The position numbers were made by a program, and so were the translations under genes. Source: Fidelibacterota bacterium (lineage in GTDB: Bacteria; Fidelibacterota; UBA8477). From it: a stretch of 11,646 nucleotides of DNA. A model generated the notes under the pieces. The model was not told the origin of the DNA. It ran no database searches and saw only the letters and a list, made by a program, of their open reading frames with translations. Shown here piece by piece: positions 1 through 10,798 of the stretch (the stretch's first letter is position 1; the number at the start of each line of letters is the position of its first letter). The stretch is from assembly GCA_021734045.1 (NCBI GenBank), contig JAIPJR010000077.1:1-11646 (forward strand). Direction: 5' to 3'.

Positions 1-1072
1 ATTTTAATCGATTTCCATCCCGGTCCCGGACAATAATCGCAAATGCCGGGACATCACCGCTCACACGATAGGAAATTGTCGCAGTCAGGTGTTTCAACTG
101 TGGCGCCATAATCTCCGGCAGGCGACCCAGGTTGGGCGTAATAATCACCGCGCCGGCATCCGAGCGGTCACCAGGCACCGCAGAAACCGAGAATTCGGCC
201 ACTCCCCTGTCATCTGTAACCGGTTTAGCAGCAAGGTCGCCAGATTTGTACACTGCCCGCAGGGGCATGCCACGGATGGGAATCGCCTTGCCATTCCTCA
301 CCAAACTGATTTTTACCGCAATTTCATCCGGTAGTCGTTGACCTGGCGCAGCTACCTGATCTTCTCCTGACATAATAGTCAGGCTGACACCACTCAGGAT
401 CGTGCGCAGTTCTGATAGCATGGCTGAACCTGTGAGATTATCCGGTAGATGATATTTCATATCCGCAATGGCATTGTAAAAACTCTGACGCGGATAGACC
501 TCCGGCACCAATGCCAAGGCGTCAGAGAAGTTCTCTATGGCCGGGAAAATATTGCCCTGATCCAATAGTGACTGGGCATCATCATGAAGTCCGGACAGAC
601 GATCACCGTATTGGCGCAATTCATCGGCCAGAGCGCTCAGATATTGGTTACGATCCAGGACAGCGTAGGCATAATAAGTCCCACCCACCGGCTTGGATTC
701 TACCACTTGAATGCCCTGGATGGTCTCATCTACAATGGTTTCAGTAGTAGAATTAAACGCATTCGAATAAAATTCCCGATCATCACCGGTGTACTCTTCC
801 TCCACGGTTTTAGTGGCGTTTTTAATTTGGACTTTTAATTGAGATGCTACTTCGGTACGGGCTTGATCAGATGCCGTTTTCAAATCCGGTCCTGATCCCA
901 CACCGGTCCAGTACATCCCGGCGGGATAGGCTGGATGTTTACCGGATTTTGCCCATCCTGGAATCGCATCGTTTCCGCTGGTCGCCTTGTCGCTTCCGGT
1001 ACAGCCGGTGATGTTCAGAAGAATACCCAGCCCGATGGTCAGAACCATTAGTCTATAGAAATTAATTTTCAT
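1..1072 (-). CDS. LPP20-family outer-membrane lipoprotein (3' end outside window)
   Basis: The reading frame is open from an ATG at 1072-1070 to the window edge, giving 357 residues with no stop, so the gene is partial at its C-terminus. Residues 1-24 form a lipoprotein signal: Lys and Arg, a hydrophobic stretch, then the lipobox ITGC with Cys24 as the lipidated residue. Residues about 38-150 read as an LPP20 domain: a PGWA motif, a GVGSG turn, an acidic-amphipathic helix with DQARTEVASQL, and an YYAYAVLDRNQY strand-helix near the end. Residues about 160-205 look like a TPR-type helical hairpin (AQSLLDQGN followed by AIENFSDALALVP). From about 225 onward the alternating hydrophobic pattern suggests beta-sandwich (Ig-like) domains. 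The start has GGAG at 1082-1079, 6 nt away, and lies 3 nt after the stop of the upstream gene, so translation is probably coupled. LPP20 members include Helicobacter LPP20 and Vibrio FlgP. The family assignment is good; the role is inferred only. Confidence -1.
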   Translation of the reverse strand, partial: MKINFYRLMVLTIGLGILLNITGCTGSDKATSGNDAIPGWAKSGKHPAYPAGMYWTGVGSGPDLKTASDQARTEVASQLKVQIKNATKTVEEEYTGDDREFYSNAFNSTTETIVDETIQGIQVVESKPVGGTYYAYAVLDRNQYLSALADELRQYGDRLSGLHDDAQSLLDQGNIFPAIENFSDALALVPEVYPRQSFYNAIADMKYHLPDNLTGSAMLSELRTILSGVSLTIMSGEDQVAAPGQRLPDEIAVKISLVRNGKAIPIRGMPLRAVYKSGDLAAKPVTDDRGVAEFSVSAVPGDRSDAGAVIITPNLGRLPEIMAPQLKHLTATISYRVSGDVPAFAIIVRDRDGNRLK

Positions 1073-1075
1073 GAA

Positions 1076-2359
1076 TTACTCCATTTCCACAGACAAAACA
1101 ACCAGTTTGCGGTTCAATGCCACTCGACGCAAACTTCCATCCGGTACCGCCTTTTCAATAGCGCGTTTCAAATCGCGATACACATTACTGGAGCGGTCAT
1201 AGCGTTCATAATCCGCCCAAATCAGGTAATCCAGCGTGTAGTCGGTCATTAAGATCTCTTTGGTAGTTTTGGCCATGTCATCAAACACATCCATTACCTC
1301 GAACATGATATCTTCGGCTTCGCTGGTGGAAAAATCCGTAGAAACACTGATTATAACCTTGTACTGCAGTCCCCGCGCTAAATCATCCTTCCAGTAGGCA
1401 GTTATGCGCGCCAGGACTTTTTCAATGGCGTCATTAATCCCCTCTTCAATGACCGCCGCATCCATGGTGGGGCGCTCGGCGGAATAACCGGTCTCGGTGC
1501 CCAGCAGCCGCCCGGTGGTGGTTTCGAAAGCCCGGACTGCGACAGCCGCTTTTTTCACTTCCCGGCTACCGACCCGACGACTCTCAGTAGTCACATTATA
1601 GGTGATATACACATCAGCACCGACGCTCAAAGCGATGAGATAGGTGGGGTCATCTTCCACATCTTTAAGGGTTTGGGAGGCGGATACTAAATCCTGTAAA
1701 CCCTCTTGCTGTTCCGGTACAATCACATCATATCGGCGGGCGGTGAGGTAGCTTTCGATGACTTCGGCGCCTTTTTTCAGTGTTTTATCGCTCTTGAGCA
1801 GGTCAAGTGGATAGCGCCCCTTGGGTGCCTCCGGCAGAACCATGATGGTAGGCAAGCCCATTTTTTCGGTCAAATCTGCCTGGGCAGTTGTGACACCCAG
1901 AGCCACCAAGTCATCTTTCACCAGGCGTGTGTTCACCCGCATAAGGCGTTTAATGCGTAATTTCTTCCCGTCATCAATTTTCACCCGCTCTTCAAACCGG
2001 TCTGACTCCCAGGCGATATATTTATTGATGTTCTGCGCCTCGAAGAAGGACTCCTGAATCCCGGCGAATTTGGATTTTTCGCCATCGGTGGTGAGGATGG
2101 GATCGCTACCACCCAACACAACAAACCAGATTGCGGCCCGGCGGGCATCCAGTTTTGCACTGGTAGTCAGTTCTTCCTGGTCCACCTTCCCCAGCCAGTT
2201 TGTCTTGGCAGTCCCGATACCGGTTGCCGCCAGAATGACTTCAGATGGTCCTGAACTTTCGATAAACAGAGCTTCTTTGGAACGGGGCACATTGGATTGG
2301 GCACTTAGAATCGTGGCCAGACCAAATACCAGAGCGAAAGTTGCGATAGAATGTTTCAA
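1076..2359 (-). CDS. Secreted DUF6175-like protein with FlgT-N-like domain
   Basis: The protein has 427 residues. Residues 1-20 are a signal peptide ending LSA-Q, without a lipobox Cys, so it is probably soluble in the periplasm or peripheral to the outer membrane. Residues about 41-155 resemble the FlgT N-terminal/LPP20-like fold: an ATGIG start, a DARRAAIWFVV helix, then a basic strand RIKRLMRVNTRLV. Residues about 169-325 have the layout of DUF6175 and CsgG/TolB-N-like domains: a PTIMVLPE strand, a helix (GAEVIESYLTARRYDVIVP), GADVYITYNVT, and a strand with AFETTTGRLLG. Residues about 331-427 form a separate alpha/beta module starting YKVIISVSTDF. The start codon is TTG, chosen because a strong ribosome binding site lies 6 nt upstream and the signal peptide starts there. 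It lies between a barrel protein and an LPP20 lipoprotein in one operon. Family recognition comes from reading the sequence, and the function is unknown. Confidence -1.
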   Translation of the reverse strand: MKHSIATFALVFGLATILSAQSNVPRSKEALFIESSGPSEVILAATGIGTAKTNWLGKVDQEELTTSAKLDARRAAIWFVVLGGSDPILTTDGEKSKFAGIQESFFEAQNINKYIAWESDRFEERVKIDDGKKLRIKRLMRVNTRLVKDDLVALGVTTAQADLTEKMGLPTIMVLPEAPKGRYPLDLLKSDKTLKKGAEVIESYLTARRYDVIVPEQQEGLQDLVSASQTLKDVEDDPTYLIALSVGADVYITYNVTTESRRVGSREVKKAAVAVRAFETTTGRLLGTETGYSAERPTMDAAVIEEGINDAIEKVLARITAYWKDDLARGLQYKVIISVSTDFSTSEAEDIMFEVMDVFDDMAKTTKEILMTDYTLDYLIWADYERYDRSSNVYRDLKRAIEKAVPDGSLRRVALNRKLVVLSVEME

Positions 2360-2373
2360 AATAATCTCCTCCC
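2357..2373 (-). promoter_or_regulatory. Strong Shine-Dalgarno with TTG start codon
   Basis: On the minus strand GGGAGGAG (2373-2366) is followed after 6 nt (ATTATT) by TTG at 2359-2357. No in-frame ATG lies between the upstream stop and the signal peptide, so this site decides the start of the DUF6175-like gene. A small GAGAA-CAAC-TTCTC hairpin (2389-2376) sits just upstream of the ribosome binding site; whether it matters is unclear. Confidence -1.
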
Positions 2374-2393
2374 TTGAGAAGTTGTTCTCTTGA

Positions 2394-4022
2394 TTATGGA
2401 ATCATATTAGAAAGCGTCGAGGCTGGATCAAATGCCAGTGACGGCGGCGCATAAATGATTTGAAAAGCGATACCGGACCCGGAATAACGAAGAGCAGGTC
2501 CTGAAATACTACCCACCTCCTCATTATCCGCGTTGTACCGGGTCCATTCATCACTTTCACCTGTGTATAATGAGTAGCGAATACCCGCGGTTAAATCGAT
2601 ACTCAGGGTGTAATTCAAACCCAGCCCAACCAGAAGGCCATTATTTGCATTTCTGTCGGTATAGGTATCACCCATTGAATCATCCCAGTTACCCCAGGTT
2701 TGTTGATGGGCAAATCCCAGTTGTCCGTATGCATCAAACCGGCGCCATTGCATCCGTTTCATCACTGATCCGGACACCAGAAAGCGTGTGACGGAATCAA
2801 AAATGTCATCCCCCGTCCAAGAATCCGTGATGGATGCTCCGCCAATCATCGCGGCCAAGTCAAAATACCAATGCGGTGTCTGCGTAATGCCGCCCAGGTT
2901 ATAGGCGATCTCAGCCCCAAGCCCGCCGCCACCTTCTACATCGTATAATGAAGATTCGGTGGACAAGGGCAGCGTTCCCATGAGAATGTAAATGTCCAGA
3001 TTCAGGCGGGGATATTCCACCAGTGACATACCCGGTGCCCAATCCCCCACGATGACACCATACCCGTGACTCAATTCACTGGCATTCTCGCGATTATCCG
3101 CAATCTGACCAATCCGGACAAATCCATCTCTCTTGAATTTCATCTCACCGTTTGATGACTCCACATATTCACCGACGATAAAGCGGTCATCAATGCGGAG
3201 ACCTTCTCTTTTACCCATCCGGAAACCAACCTGTGTACCGACCACTTCTGCCACCTGGGTAGTGAGCTTAAATTCGTCATATTCCTTAGTGGCATTCTCC
3301 AGGTTGCGGGCATAATTCAATACAGCCGCCTCAAAAGCATTCTCTTCAGCGTCCTCAAAGTCATACTTGGTGGCGAAACCAATACTGGTGCTTTCATTTT
3401 TGACGACTGGTTTTACCGAGGTTTTTCCGTCCATGTAAGCAATTTTAAACCAAAATATGCCACCGCCTATGCTCACCGTCACGGTGTATTTGGTTTTATC
3501 ATCCTCTTTCTCCGAATCCACGGCGCGAGAGTAGCCATTCATATAGGGCAAATAAATGAATCCTGAGTTTAAAACCTGTTCCAGATTCTCTGCGGTAATG
3601 CCCATATCTTTTGCTTTGGTGGTGATAAATGACATTTTAGTGGCTTCGTCGACCAGTTCACTTGCTCGCTGTTCGGCGTACTCATCCATAATTTTCACGA
3701 TTTCAGGAACAAAAGTGCGGTTCATAATTTCGGCAATCTCGTCTACCGATAAAGCGTTCCGGCTATTGACTTCCGAGATGAATTCCCTGGTCAGCGGGCT
3801 GTTCTCCGGCAGGGGATTAAAATCAAACCGTGGAAGCTGAACACGCTCCTTCACCGTTTTGCCGATGTAGGATATCTGGTTTAATGATAAATTCCGTGCA
3901 TCAGGGCTGGCCAGGATGATAGCGTCCAGGAAAGTCACCGATTTACGCGTATACGTATCATTCTGACCTGATACAGAAAGTGCTACAGCACCGAGAAGCA
4001 TAAAAAAAATCAAATTGCGCAT
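2394..4022 (-). CDS. Secreted FlgT-C-like protein fused to outer-membrane beta barrel
   Basis: The protein has 542 residues from the ATG at 4022-4020. This start is preferred over an ATG at 4055, which would add 11 polar residues in front of the signal peptide, because AAGGAG stands 6 nt upstream and the signal peptide then begins at once. Residues 1-20 are a signal peptide ending SVSGQ. Residues 25-150 are mostly helical. Residues about 165-250 contain beta strands and a helix (DAEENAFEAAVLNYARNLE). Residues about 252-330 look like an SH3-type FlgT-C module, with VGTQVGFRMGKREGLRIDDRF, then a strand ending RDGFVRIGQIADN. Residues about 341-525 alternate polar and hydrophobic residues in about eight strands, rich in Gly and aromatics, as in small outer-membrane barrels; a short tail follows the last strand, so the protein does not end in the usual terminal aromatic. 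It is the first gene of a three-gene envelope operon. I do not recognise a named family, so the function is unassigned. Confidence -1.
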   Translation of the reverse strand: MRNLIFFMLLGAVALSVSGQNDTYTRKSVTFLDAIILASPDARNLSLNQISYIGKTVKERVQLPRFDFNPLPENSPLTREFISEVNSRNALSVDEIAEIMNRTFVPEIVKIMDEYAEQRASELVDEATKMSFITTKAKDMGITAENLEQVLNSGFIYLPYMNGYSRAVDSEKEDDKTKYTVTVSIGGGIFWFKIAYMDGKTSVKPVVKNESTSIGFATKYDFEDAEENAFEAAVLNYARNLENATKEYDEFKLTTQVAEVVGTQVGFRMGKREGLRIDDRFIVGEYVESSNGEMKFKRDGFVRIGQIADNRENASELSHGYGVIVGDWAPGMSLVEYPRLNLDIYILMGTLPLSTESSLYDVEGGGGLGAEIAYNLGGITQTPHWYFDLAAMIGGASITDSWTGDDIFDSVTRFLVSGSVMKRMQWRRFDAYGQLGFAHQQTWGNWDDSMGDTYTDRNANNGLLVGLGLNYTLSIDLTAGIRYSLYTGESDEWTRYNADNEEVGSISGPALRYSGSGIAFQIIYAPPSLAFDPASTLSNMIP

Positions 4023-4028
4023 GTTCCG

Positions 4029-4034
4029 CTCCTT
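4029..4034 (-). promoter_or_regulatory. Ribosome binding site deciding the barrel-protein start
   Basis: AAGGAG on the minus strand lies 6 nt before the ATG at 4022-4020. The alternative in-frame ATG at 4055-4053 has no comparable site. This places the signal peptide directly at the N-terminus. Confidence -1.
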
Positions 4035-4102
4035 ATTCGTGGGTTGCACCGGCATGTTCTAATCCTGTGATATCCTGAAAATCGTTTGTTGTCTGATGAG
4101 GG

Positions 4103-4137
4103 ATTCTCATTCCGGTAAACCGAAGGTAATTGAGAAT
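4103..4137. repeat. Imperfect inverted repeat in the leader/promoter of the envelope operon
   Basis: The outer arms ATTCTCA (4103-4109) and TGAGAAT (4131-4137) are perfect complements over 7 bp. Inside them, TTCCGGT and ACCGAA pair with one bulged C around an AA loop (4110-4122), leaving GGTA unpaired on one side. The repeat overlaps the candidate -10 element at 4123-4128, so it could be an operator or a structured 5' leader. No regulator binding this sequence is known to me. Confidence -1.
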
Positions 4138-4151
4138 TATTTTAGATTCAA
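4123..4151 (-). promoter_or_regulatory. Candidate promoter of the three-gene envelope operon
   Basis: On the minus strand TTGAAT (4151-4146) is followed after 17 nt by TACCTT (4128-4123). The -10 is weak by sigma-70 standards. The string TACCTTCG is also close to the Bacteroidota -7 pattern TAnnTTTG, although the spacing to the TTG is not clearly better for that reading. It lies just after the trxA terminator and about 100 nt before the start codon, so a promoter is expected somewhere in this gap; the exact elements are uncertain. Confidence -1.
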
Positions 4152-4170
4152 GATTTTAAATGTGAGGATA

Positions 4171-4197
4171 AAAAAAGCCTTCCCGCGGGAAGGCTTT
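4171..4197 (-). terminator. Rho-independent terminator of trxA
   Basis: Positions 4174-4197 are a perfect 24-nt palindrome centred on CCCGCGGG. In RNA it would fold as about a 10-bp GC-rich stem with a CGCG loop. On the minus strand it runs into six T residues (4176-4171), and it begins 27 nt after the trxA stop. On the plus strand only three T residues follow, so termination is mainly for minus-strand transcripts. Confidence -1.
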
Positions 4198-4693: not shown

Positions 4694-5929
4694 TTAAGTG
4701 CGTATCCAGCGTAAAATCTCCGGAAGGGTAATACGTTTACCGTAGAGTAGGATAGCAGTACGAAAAACCTTACCCGCTATTCGCATCGTGTAATAGACCG
4801 CTACCACCATAATAATCAGTGTAATGCCCACCTGAAAGGGGCTGGCAGCACTGACGGCTAATTTCATGATCATGAAGTAGGGTGTGAAAATGGGGATATA
4901 ACTGAGCACATTCACCAGTGTAGAGTTTGGGCTTTCAATAACCAAGGTCCAGAGCATGATGGGAATAACCGCTAAAATGGATATAAATCCCACTGCCTGC
5001 TGGGCATCCTGTTCCGAGTCGAATAGTGATCCAATGGCCATGAATACGGCCGCCCACCACAAATAGCCGAGAATGAAATAGACCAGGAATAGAATAATCA
5101 TGACGGAATCAATTACATTGATGCCGTAATAGGTCCCCACCCCGGCTAAAACTATTAGATAGAGGAGTGACTGGCTTATTCCAAGTCCTGCCAGCCCGAT
5201 TATTTTTCCGGCCATAAGTTCATTGTAATGCGCTACCGAGAGCATCATCTCAATCACCCGGTTAGAGCGTTCTTCGATAATGCCGCGCATCAGGAGCTGT
5301 GCGCCCATAAAGACACCCATGAACAGCAAAAACAGAAACGCGAATGGCATCATATAGCGGAAAAATTCCTGCCCACCGGAAAGCTTGTCTTCCTTGCCCA
5401 ACTCGTAGGAGCTCACATTAACCCGCGCCTTCAACACATCCACGAGGGAGGAATCCAGCCCGTACACCTCAACTCGCTGCATGAGGAGAATATCGTTCAA
5501 AGCATTCTCGAACCGGGAAACATCCCGGAATGAACCCACCTGTTTGGAGTAAAAACTCACTTCCATACTATCAGCAATATGGGCAGGAATGATGAAATAG
5601 CCATCCATATTCCCGTCACCAACCAGTGTCTCAAAAGCTGACTTTATCTCTTGAGACGGCTTATTTTCTACAGTAAAGCGGTACTGGGGCACACCGTCTG
5701 AGGTGTAGCGCTTCTCCAGTTTTTGCGAAATTGCTCTTCCGTACTCGCCGGTTTCATCAATGATACCGTAGTGTTTTTCCGATAACCCCAGTCCCGCACC
5801 GGCGATATAACCCGATAACAGACTAATTCCGATAATGAGCAGTGGCAGTCCAAATGTGCTGATAAGAAACCATTTGGAACGGACGCGAATTTTAAATTCA
5901 TGCCAGGCGATGATGATGATTTTGTTCAT
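4694..5929 (-). CDS. ABC-2 family exporter permease (NatB-like)
   Basis: The 411-residue membrane protein matches the NatB/ABC-2 type (ABC2_membrane_3) layout. A cytoplasmic N-terminal stretch leads into TM1 (about 20-45), then a large extracytoplasmic domain (about 46-185). TM2 follows (about 189-214), then the conserved cytoplasmic coupling motif IIEERSNRVIEMMLSVA (217-233). Four more membrane segments lie at about 241-266, 274-302, 311-331 and 364-386, and the C-terminal tail is basic. The start codon overlaps the ATPase stop by 4 nt (ATGA), so the two subunits are translationally coupled and probably form the exporter. NatB of Bacillus exports sodium, but members of this fold move many substrates, so the substrate cannot be named here. 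No signal for specific regulation is visible. Confidence -1.
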   Translation of the reverse strand: MNKIIIIAWHEFKIRVRSKWFLISTFGLPLLIIGISLLSGYIAGAGLGLSEKHYGIIDETGEYGRAISQKLEKRYTSDGVPQYRFTVENKPSQEIKSAFETLVGDGNMDGYFIIPAHIADSMEVSFYSKQVGSFRDVSRFENALNDILLMQRVEVYGLDSSLVDVLKARVNVSSYELGKEDKLSGGQEFFRYMMPFAFLFLLFMGVFMGAQLLMRGIIEERSNRVIEMMLSVAHYNELMAGKIIGLAGLGISQSLLYLIVLAGVGTYYGINVIDSVMIILFLVYFILGYLWWAAVFMAIGSLFDSEQDAQQAVGFISILAVIPIMLWTLVIESPNSTLVNVLSYIPIFTPYFMIMKLAVSAASPFQVGITLIIMVVAVYYTMRIAGKVFRTAILLYGKRITLPEILRWIRT

Positions 5930-6819
5930 TTTACACCTCGCACCAGTGAGATGAATATCTCTTCCAGACCGGCCTCGGCAATCCGAATGCTTCGGGTGGG
6001 GATGACTGCATTTATCTTCCCAATCATTCCCTGTACCTCCGATTCAGACTGGAAGGGAATGTGAATGTTGCCATTCCCTTGCACCTCGCCGCTCATCTCT
6101 CGGAATAGGTCGTGTTGAAGTTGCGCTGCTTCCAGAGGCATCACCTCAAGGACCTGCTTGCCATGCTGTTGTTTTATCTGTTTTAAATCACCGGAGACAA
6201 TCAATTTGCCCTTATTCACCAATCCGATATCATCACAAATTTTTTCCACCTGATCCATTTGGTGAGAGCTGAGAATAATGGTTTTCTCCTGTGCCTTCAG
6301 CTCAGCCAGAATCTCTTTCAGAATGATTTGATTCACCGGGTCAAGACCGGAAAAGGGCTCATCAAGAATAAGAAATCGGGGATCATGGACGATTGCGTTA
6401 ATAAACTGCACCTTCTGCTGATTACCCTTGGACAGTTCGCTCACCTTTGTGTTGTAGCGGCTACTGAGATCAAATCGTTCCAGGTAGTTATCAATGACCA
6501 TGCCCGCTTCATGGGCTTTTTTCCCCCGCAAACTGGCAAAATAGATAAGCAATTCCTTAACGGGAATTTTCTGGTACAATCCCCGCTCTTCCGGCAGGTA
6601 CCCGAATGCACTGGCATCCGGTTTTTCAGGCGATCCGTCATAAATCACCCGCCCCATATCCGCCTTCAGAATATCCATAATAATGCGAATGGCTGTAGTC
6701 TTCCCAGCGCCATTAGGACCGAGGAATCCAAAAATCCGCCCTGGTTCCACGGTAAATGAAACCGAATCAACCGCCAATACATCCTCAAATTGCTTCGTTA
6801 TTTCTTCCAGTCTTAGCAT
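5926..6819 (-). CDS. ABC transporter ATP-binding protein (NatA-like, DUF4162 type)
   Basis: The 297-residue ATPase powers the permease encoded next. The motifs are in order: Walker A GPNGAGKTT (34-42), a Q-loop region reading YLPEERGLY (74-82) with Glu in place of the usual Gln, the signature ELSKGNQQKVQ (128-138), Walker B FLILDEP (149-155), D-loop SGLDP (157-161) and the switch His in SSH (184-186). The variant signature LSKGN and the PEERGLY stretch are typical of the NatA subfamily with a DUF4162-like C-terminus (about 215-297), so I do not read them as damage. The ATG at 6819 has AGGA 8 nt upstream. It follows glgB by 31 nt and precedes the permease with a 4-nt overlap. Confidence -1.
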   Translation of the reverse strand: MLRLEEITKQFEDVLAVDSVSFTVEPGRIFGFLGPNGAGKTTAIRIIMDILKADMGRVIYDGSPEKPDASAFGYLPEERGLYQKIPVKELLIYFASLRGKKAHEAGMVIDNYLERFDLSSRYNTKVSELSKGNQQKVQFINAIVHDPRFLILDEPFSGLDPVNQIILKEILAELKAQEKTIILSSHQMDQVEKICDDIGLVNKGKLIVSGDLKQIKQQHGKQVLEVMPLEAAQLQHDLFREMSGEVQGNGNIHIPFQSESEVQGMIGKINAVIPTRSIRIAEAGLEEIFISLVRGVK

Positions 6820-9109: not shown

Positions 9110-10798
9110 TTAATGCTCAATCATCGAAAGAACCGAATGACCATCCAGATTATCCGGTACTTTGAGGTTTAGCAGTTCGGCCAATGTGGGGGCAATGTCA
9201 ATTGTGCGCACGCGTTGGGAGATTTTTTGTGCGCTAATCCCATCCCCCATAATCATCCAGGGAACATGCATATCATAATAATAGGGCTGACCGTGTCCCG
9301 TGCCCTTGGGCAGGCTGGTGAGGTATTGGTATTGTTTAGGAACAATATGCCAATCCGGTCCCTTTTCCGGATGCCAGGAATGAGCAACCAGTTGCCCCAG
9401 TGTATCCAAGTCAGAATGCCTGGTTAATTCGTCCCGGTTATAGACAGCTTGCACCCAGTGCTGCTGTAGGGCTTCTGTACGGATGAATGCATCCAGGTCA
9501 GAAAATTCAATACCAGCATCAGTCAAAACAGAATCACTGATATAAATATCCAGCATGCCGTAGGAGAGAAAAATGTCATCATCCACACCATATTTTATTT
9601 GAACAGCCTGCTTAAGTGAGTCCCTGAATGCTCGGGCGGTGGGACCACCACGGTGGGCGGGGAGTCCCTGTTCCTGCAGCATTTCAGGCATATCCATGCA
9701 GCCATGGTCAGAGGAGATGGCATAGAGGATGTCAGATTTGGGTATCCTGGTCTCTAATTTAATCATAAATGTTTCCAGATATTGGTCCAGCAACAATTCC
9801 AGCTCTGCCGTCTCATGGCCGTTAGGGCCTGTGCAATGGGTGATAATGTCCATGGATGAGATTCCCACAATCAGAAGGTCAGGTACCTCATCCACCCCCA
9901 GATTCTCCTCAGCACTAATCCGTTCAGCCAACTGTAGTGTGACTTCATCCAAAAAGGGCATAAATCCGAATTGCCCGTAATAGGTGTGCGATAAGCCCGA
10001 ATCACCTGAAGAGATATAGTGGGGAAATGAAGGGTTATGTCGATCTGGATTTTTTTCGGAATCGCTGGTCCGGCGGGAAATATCTCGTTCATAGAAATAG
10101 TCGTCTTCACTGCGACCCACGGATTGGTAATACGATTCAGGCTGAGATTTTTCCCATCTTACCCCACGATATCCGGCCGGGTAGTTCTGCTGATTGAATT
10201 CATCAATATAATCAGGATAGGTTTCCATATAGTATTTTGATGTGATGAAATTCCCGAGGTCCCAGTCGTACCAATACGCGCCGTCAGGATTTTTCCCACC
10301 CATCAGTACGGCAGCACGATCTTTTCCGGAGACACTGAATACTTTTGCGCTGGGGTGAGTCTTCTTCAGCCAATCTCCCAACGATGTGCCCTCCACCCTG
10401 CGGTAGGATGTCCCCCTGCCCGACTGACCGATGATGGGAGACGCTTCATCTTCAACGCAATAAAAATTCCGTCCCTGGGATTTATCGAAATAATTATTGG
10501 CCAGAATACCCATAGAACCGTGATGGCGTCCCGATAATAGGGTGAGATGCCCCGGTCCGGTAGCGGTAGATGCGTGATGATGGACGGTATTGGTAAACCA
10601 CGCAGCATTTTCGGTAAATCGCTGTAAACCACCGGTATAGTAAGGTTGAAAACGACCCGGTAAATCACCGCGCCACGAATCCAGTGAGATAAAGACAACC
10701 AGTTTTGGCAGATCGCTGGTTTGCCCAGATTTTCCCCCACAACACAACAGAATGACAAGACTAATTCCGGCCAGTAAACTCAATTTTATTAATCGCAT
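9110..10798 (-). CDS. PafA-type alkaline phosphatase family protein, secreted or lipid-anchored
   Basis: This 562-residue enzyme belongs to the alkaline phosphatase superfamily in the PafA/SPAP-like branch, which releases phosphate from monoesters in the periplasm with two zinc ions and a threonine nucleophile. All expected active-site positions are visible: Asp40 in SLDS, Thr80 in TATGPGH, Asn101 in GILANNYFD, Lys159 and Arg161 in SGKDRAA, Asp317 and His321 in SSMDIITH, Asp364-His365 in SSDHGC, and His502 in GTGHGQPYYYD. The Lys-Arg pair marks the monoesterase type. Residues 1-20 are a signal segment ending LLCCGG; the Cys pair could be a lipobox, but it lacks the usual Gly, Ala or Ser before Cys, so the anchor is uncertain. 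The start overlaps the tyrS stop by 10 nt, with an AAGGTG site just upstream. There is no visible phosphate-starvation box, and being in an operon with tyrS and glgB is unusual. Confidence -1.
   Translation of the reverse strand: MRLIKLSLLAGISLVILLCCGGKSGQTSDLPKLVVFISLDSWRGDLPGRFQPYYTGGLQRFTENAAWFTNTVHHHASTATGPGHLTLLSGRHHGSMGILANNYFDKSQGRNFYCVEDEASPIIGQSGRGTSYRRVEGTSLGDWLKKTHPSAKVFSVSGKDRAAVLMGGKNPDGAYWYDWDLGNFITSKYYMETYPDYIDEFNQQNYPAGYRGVRWEKSQPESYYQSVGRSEDDYFYERDISRRTSDSEKNPDRHNPSFPHYISSGDSGLSHTYYGQFGFMPFLDEVTLQLAERISAEENLGVDEVPDLLIVGISSMDIITHCTGPNGHETAELELLLDQYLETFMIKLETRIPKSDILYAISSDHGCMDMPEMLQEQGLPAHRGGPTARAFRDSLKQAVQIKYGVDDDIFLSYGMLDIYISDSVLTDAGIEFSDLDAFIRTEALQQHWVQAVYNRDELTRHSDLDTLGQLVAHSWHPEKGPDWHIVPKQYQYLTSLPKGTGHGQPYYYDMHVPWMIMGDGISAQKISQRVRTIDIAPTLAELLNLKVPDNLDGHSVLSMIEH

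Follow-up and report, generated by a model that had tools for sequence, protein, structure and literature searches.

A conserved three-gene cassette with FlgT-like predicted folds and an LPP20 lipoprotein, a candidate outer-membrane ring or scaffold of FCB bacteria

H-ring and basal-disk proteins have been described as add-ons of the flagellar motor. FlgP, Lpp20 and FlgT have an SHS2-like fold in common, and FlgP and FlgT form rings associated with the outer membrane (PMC12222027). In Vibrio, the H-ring (FlgO, FlgP and FlgT) helps in outer-membrane penetration and anchoring (PMC7990780, PMC6375700). In the literature that we searched, no paper dealt with FlgT in nonflagellated bacteria, none linked LPP20 to Marinimicrobia or to the type IX secretion system (T9SS), and none named DUF6175, a family without a described function.

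Here we analyzed a window of 11,646 nucleotides from a Neomarinimicrobiota genome. This window spans contig C44 in full; the genome measures 2.5 Mb and is 92% complete. Three consecutive minus-strand genes, called P3, P2 and P1, occupy the first 4 kb of the window. Like the Vibrio H-ring, this cassette encodes FlgT-N-, M- and C-type folds, as predicted by models, together with an LPP20/FlgP-type lipoprotein, and it belongs to the outer-membrane side of the envelope. Unlike the H-ring, it distributes the FlgT-like domains over two proteins, has the M domain twice, carries an OmpW-like barrel fused to one of them, gives no sequence match to FlgT models and is kept in the absence of flagellar genes. 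The FlgP basal disk of Campylobacter and Helicobacter is comparable in the LPP20/SHS2-type domain, which is present in P1 and in two further proteins, LppS and LppD; P1, however, is longer (440-465 aa in its relatives), has extra domains and shows no flagellar tie. The CsgG/PelC/GNA1162 family is similar in the fold of the P2 middle domain, but P2 has no CsgG transmembrane hairpins, and no curli or Pel genes recur alongside it.

Layout and family membership of the cassette

An earlier note on this DNA had described three consecutive, tightly spaced genes for exported proteins. This is indeed the arrangement found (Table 1), with gaps of 34 nt between P3 and P2 and 3 nt between P2 and P1, and with export signals that were read by inspection. 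Between the thioredoxin gene and P3 lies a GC-rich terminator-like hairpin, GCCTTCCCGCGGGAAGGC, with a T-run, and the ribosome site AAGGAG stands ahead of the P3 start at 4022. Because these elements set the cassette off, it looks like a transcription unit of its own. Elsewhere in the window, 4694-6819 encodes an ordinary ABC-2 type exporter, a permease with its ATPase, flanked by the thioredoxin gene and a GlgB branching enzyme gene. An alkaline phosphatase gene (9110-10798) is related to PafA; it scored 326 bits with NF042991, short of the equivalog cut-off (650).

Table 1. Features of the cassette and of the region upstream of it. Gene positions refer to the window, domain positions to the protein.
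Feature	Position	Strand	Description and basis
P3 (542 aa)	2394..4022	-	Signal peptide, FlgT-M-like, FlgT-C-like and OmpW-like barrel
P3 FlgT-M-like domain	aa 24-252		Model
P3 FlgT-C-like domain	aa 253-336		SH3-type; model
P3 OmpW-like barrel	aa 340-527		8-stranded; model
P2 (427 aa)	1076..2359	-	Exported DUF6175 protein (Pfam, AF2, Foldseek, VIA)
P2 FlgT-N-like domain	about aa 38-145		SHS2-type; model
P2 middle domain	aa 168-325		FlgT-M/CsgG/PelC/TolB-N-like; model
P2 extra C-terminal domain	aa 331-427		Alpha/beta; no fold match, barely covered by the VIA-align comparison
P1	1..1072	-	LPP20-domain lipoprotein; runs off contig end
P1 FlgP/Lpp20-type domain	aa 38-140
Intergenic region upstream of cassette	4023..4195	-	Sequence read directly

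P1 matched Pfam LPP20 with an E-value of 2.1e-12 (47.8 bits against a cut-off of 25.9), and its profile matched the solved LPP20 protein 4kzs (E 2.7e-11). Inspection revealed the lipobox ITGC. The assignment of one of the proteins as an LPP20 lipoprotein is thus borne out for P1. An LPP20 match was obtained for all 17 members of A3, and a lipobox-like motif was present in 11 of the 69 relatives of P1, most of them being without one.

P2 is a member of DUF6175 (PF19672) by the Pfam cut-off (E 3e-7, 30.1 bits against 23), as are 68 of the 74 aligned members by their own matches to this family. The Pfam CsgG model matched only 1 of the 74, at an E-value of 0.06. P3 had no Pfam match; an outer-membrane barrel model matched 13 of its 58 aligned members. 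The Pfam models FlgT_N, FlgT_M and FlgT_C matched neither P2 nor P3, nor their alignments of 74 and 58 rows. By sequence, P2 and P3 are therefore not FlgT family members. Both also remained without a match when compared by sequence, single or as a profile, with PDB chains, and profile-profile comparison revealed no similarity of P2 to P3 or to P1. A phage origin was considered as well, and no PHROG match was found.

Predicted folds of P2 and P3

AlphaFold2 models were built on the alignments of 74 (P2) and 58 (P3) sequences and reached a pLDDT of 92.1 and a pTM of 0.81 for P2, and 88.6 and 0.84 for P3. They were compared by Foldseek with 350,542 solved PDB chains. The same pair of FlgT structures occupied the first two ranks for both proteins: 3w1e (E 3.9e-10) and 8z5n_0 (E 7.0e-10) for P2, and 8z5n_0 (E 7.8e-10) and 3w1e (E 1.3e-9) for P3. 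VIA-align placed residues 41-324 of P2 onto residues 1-267 of FlgT (Z 9.9, rmsd 15.9, 209 aligned) and residues 24-336 of P3 onto residues 96-352 of FlgT 3w1e (Z 10.3, rmsd 10.8, 215 aligned). Residues 340-527 of P3 were aligned with OmpW (Z 17.4, rmsd 3.7, 173 aligned). The high rmsd towards FlgT is probably caused by different domain angles in the modelled P2 and P3, to which we also ascribe the low whole-chain TM-scores of about 0.2.

A barrel protein with a FlgT-C-like segment, and a second protein with a FlgT-N-like domain and a DUF6175/CsgG-like middle, had both been proposed for this locus. At the level of predicted folds P3 corresponds to the former, its barrel being OmpW-like, and P2 to the latter, its DUF6175 membership coming from Pfam; FlgT and CsgG-type folds are both present in the models. 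The idea that the FlgT domains are split over two proteins, one with a barrel, likewise holds by fold. A simple division into N and C does not. Since the FlgT-M fold occurs in both proteins, the split is N+M in P2 and M+C plus barrel in P3, and neither protein combines all three FlgT-like domains.

The middle domain of P2 also resembles components of export systems. PelC and CsgG form rings, and this domain scored higher against PelC (Z 12.6) and CsgG (Z 11.2; 4q79, aa 169-324) than P2 did against FlgT, with TolB-N at Z 10.0. The trio could thus be a secretion pore or export conduit for polysaccharide, amyloid or protein, in which P2 would be a CsgG- or PelC-like periplasmic ring and P3 the outer-membrane part; an SLBB protein encoded in LCP-89 loci would fit such a role. 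We consider this improbable. In the model, P2 does not have the long CsgG-type transmembrane hairpin, as strands 250-263 and 266-279 are connected by a short loop, and an 8-stranded barrel alone is too narrow for the passage of a polymer. Moreover, no synthase or substrate gene recurs next to the trio, and the best Foldseek match of P2 and P3 is FlgT, not CsgG. It should be noted that the TolB-N/CsgG-type fold is also found in proteins that do not form rings, such as TolB and LptE, and the fold is therefore no proof of a ring.

Conservation of the gene order and further genes at the loci

Relatives of P2 (42-67% identical) were detected in 17 of 60 related genomes. When a species-level genome collection was scanned with P2 as a single sequence, no match was obtained, whereas a scan with the alignment yielded 80 loci. 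These belong mostly to FCB phyla, namely Neomarinimicrobiota, Cloacimonadota, Latescibacterota, LCP-89, Calditrichota, Electryoneota, Bacteroidota, Ignavibacteriota, Chlorobiota and Balneolota. Of the loci, 64 extend past P2 in both directions; in 41 of these the order P3-P2-P1 on one strand was conserved, and in each of the others among the 64 P1 or P3 adjoins P2. P1 follows P2 in 66/78 loci, and P3 is located at most 5 kb from P2 in 57/67; the median gaps across loci are about 32 and 9 nt. The recurrence of P3-P2-P1, which extends over about 10 phyla, is far above chance, and the neighbours of P2 do not vary randomly: the trio, as proposed, is a conserved unit.

P3 was present in all 17 genomes with P2 and in 1 of the 43 others (p 5e-14); in this one genome, P3 runs to the contig end. 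Two genomes (G052 and G028) have both P2 and P3, although unlinked. The contigs C3 and C13 of G028 carry three P3-type genes, none of them beside the P2 gene. Some Cloacimonadota have P3 in inverted orientation or behind P1, and in Chlorobiota the P2-P1 pair is kept with no P3 nearby. A P2-P1 pair without P3 was also seen in family f8 (L036, L037), followed in L036 by the gene for a CBM9/DUF5916 protein. Two divergent relatives of P2 (L119, L120) come from records titled Spirochaetaceae and Rickettsiales; they form long branches and possibly represent mis-binned contigs. In the P2 tree, the rows grouped largely by phylum, and Neomarinimicrobiota, Cloacimonadota and Ignavibacteriota each appeared in more than one group. 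This pattern therefore fits an ancient spread to which transfer, paralogy or mis-binning has contributed to some extent.

Of 45 wide loci, 23 have an additional LPP20 gene encoding LppS and 18 one encoding LppD, and besides these two no other gene recurs across several phyla at the trio loci. In the window's genus, a gene for an MltC-like lytic transglycosylase directly follows LppS (L039:5673-7136, L152:2985-4433, L153:4509-5945). LppS and the gene for a large LTD-repeat surface protein with a T9SS tail are divergent neighbours in many Neomarinimicrobiota, whether or not the trio is present; this arrangement was seen at L039:7167-12687 (C116 of the window's own genome) and L152-L160.

In three loci of an LCP-89 clade, the gene directly upstream of P3 encodes a FlgT_N protein. 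Two members were scanned and exceeded the Pfam cut-off (E 4e-9 and 6e-7); the third is a homologue of both. No P1 is found downstream at the locus with the FlgT_N protein. Judged from these Pfam matches, the protein is a sequence-level tie of the cassette to the FlgT family. The LCP-89 loci L052, L057 and L058 have in one row genes for a C25 protease, a PorV-like barrel, a product of ~250 aa, an SLBB protein, the FlgT_N protein, P3 and P2.

Such neighbours raise the possibility that the trio forms a complex in the outer membrane with ties to the T9SS or its surface proteins. The large LTD-family protein with its T9SS-type tail adjoins the cassette in 11 Neomarinimicrobiota-type loci, as a rule divergently, and the LppS-LTD pair is intact in relatives that lack the module and in the window's own genome, where it lies apart from the trio on contig C116. 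The LCP-89 loci, L084 and a Zixibacteria record (L065) have C25 protease and PorV-like genes nearby; the Cloacimonadota locus L072 has a PorV-like gene. The link through LTD, however, runs through LppS, which is itself also found without the trio. Holders of the trio are mostly FCB bacteria, and SprA was detected in 58/60 relatives, but a gene so nearly universal is uninformative. The link looked promising at first; compared with 20 control windows, a rough and small control whose queries came from module loci, there was no enrichment of T9SS tails outside the LTD gene (19/72 module loci versus 4/20) or of PorV (7/83 versus 3/20). We therefore regard a tie to the T9SS as unlikely.

Flagellar genes and the proposed ring

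No flagellar gene is present in the window, as had been noticed earlier, and neither FlgI nor FlhA was found in its 92%-complete genome. Among 150 Neomarinimicrobiota genomes, P2 was present in 28 and FlgI in 33, with both in 10 (Fisher p 0.07). FlgI was absent from 18 of the 28 genomes with P2, and P2 from 23 genomes with FlgI. Family f29 has FlgI in eight genomes and P2 in none, whereas at least 12 genomes of family f9 have P2, four of them together with FlgI; in family f2, FlgI was found in 0/4 module genomes versus 5/16 others. Outside the phylum, FlhA was present in 23 of 43 module genomes, including all those tested from Latescibacterota, LCP-89 and Balneolota, and in 0/6 from Chlorobiota. 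From this distribution it follows that a flagellum can exist without the module and the module without a flagellum.

Since about half of the module genomes outside Neomarinimicrobiota are flagellated, a flagellar accessory role in these holders may exist. The proposal that the trio is non-flagellar accordingly stands for the window's own genome and many others. The stronger version of such a role is that the trio is an accessory flagellar ring in FCB bacteria and the counterpart of the Vibrio H-ring; holders without a flagellum would then put it to secondary use or have lost flagellar genes recently. Besides the FlhA counts, P3 is more often in the locus in flagellated genomes (20/23 versus 11/20 non-flagellated), and over the 60 relatives there is a weak flagellar association (8/18 versus 7/42, p 0.048, uncorrected for kinship). 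The many genomes with only one of P2 and FlgI, the counts in families f29 and f2 and the Chlorobiota genomes speak against it, and the scanned neighbours of P2 are non-flagellar, except for FlgT_N in LCP-89. Overall, we give this explanation a small likelihood.

The reading that we propose is a periplasmic ring or scaffold anchored in the outer membrane, built from a rearranged H-ring domain set and with a collar-type role; we put its chances at about even. P3 would be anchored in the outer membrane via its OmpW-like barrel and would display FlgT-M- and FlgT-C-like domains into the periplasm. P2 would supply FlgT-N- and FlgT-M-like domains, and the ring would be formed or braced by P1, the FlgP-type LPP20 protein, which is lipid-anchored in the window's genus. 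By binding to one another, with P2 and P1 assembling on the periplasmic domains of P3, the three proteins could oligomerise into a ring complex independent of the flagellum. Just as the H-ring works for the flagellum, this complex may surround a structure that spans the outer membrane and act on it as a collar, a bushing or an aid to membrane penetration. The models argue for such a ring: FlgT is the top fold match of both P2 and P3, and the segments aligned to FlgT complement each other, N+M in P2 and M+C in P3. The OmpW-like barrel of P3, the LPP20 domain of P1, the kept gene order, the joint occurrence of P2 and P3, the FlgT_N protein of LCP-89 and the additional LPP20 genes point the same way. 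The absence of sequence matches to FlgT models and of profile similarity of P2 to P3 or P1, the low whole-chain TM-scores, the occurrence of the TolB-N/CsgG-type fold in non-ring proteins, the lack of P3 near P2-P1 in Chlorobiota and the small number of P1 lipoboxes count against it.

A broader version, in which the cassette is a widespread outer-membrane ring machine of FCB bacteria, made of FlgT/FlgP-type parts with a built-in beta-barrel and serving a non-flagellar structure, is possible but doubtful. If it is true, envelope collars would form an older family, with the flagellar H-ring parts as one of its branches. An operon with the same predicted folds in flagellum-less bacteria, within a spread of about 10 phyla, suggests that the flagellum is not the only place where such rings work and that the rings possibly predate their flagellar use, and DUF6175 would gain a first function that can be tested.
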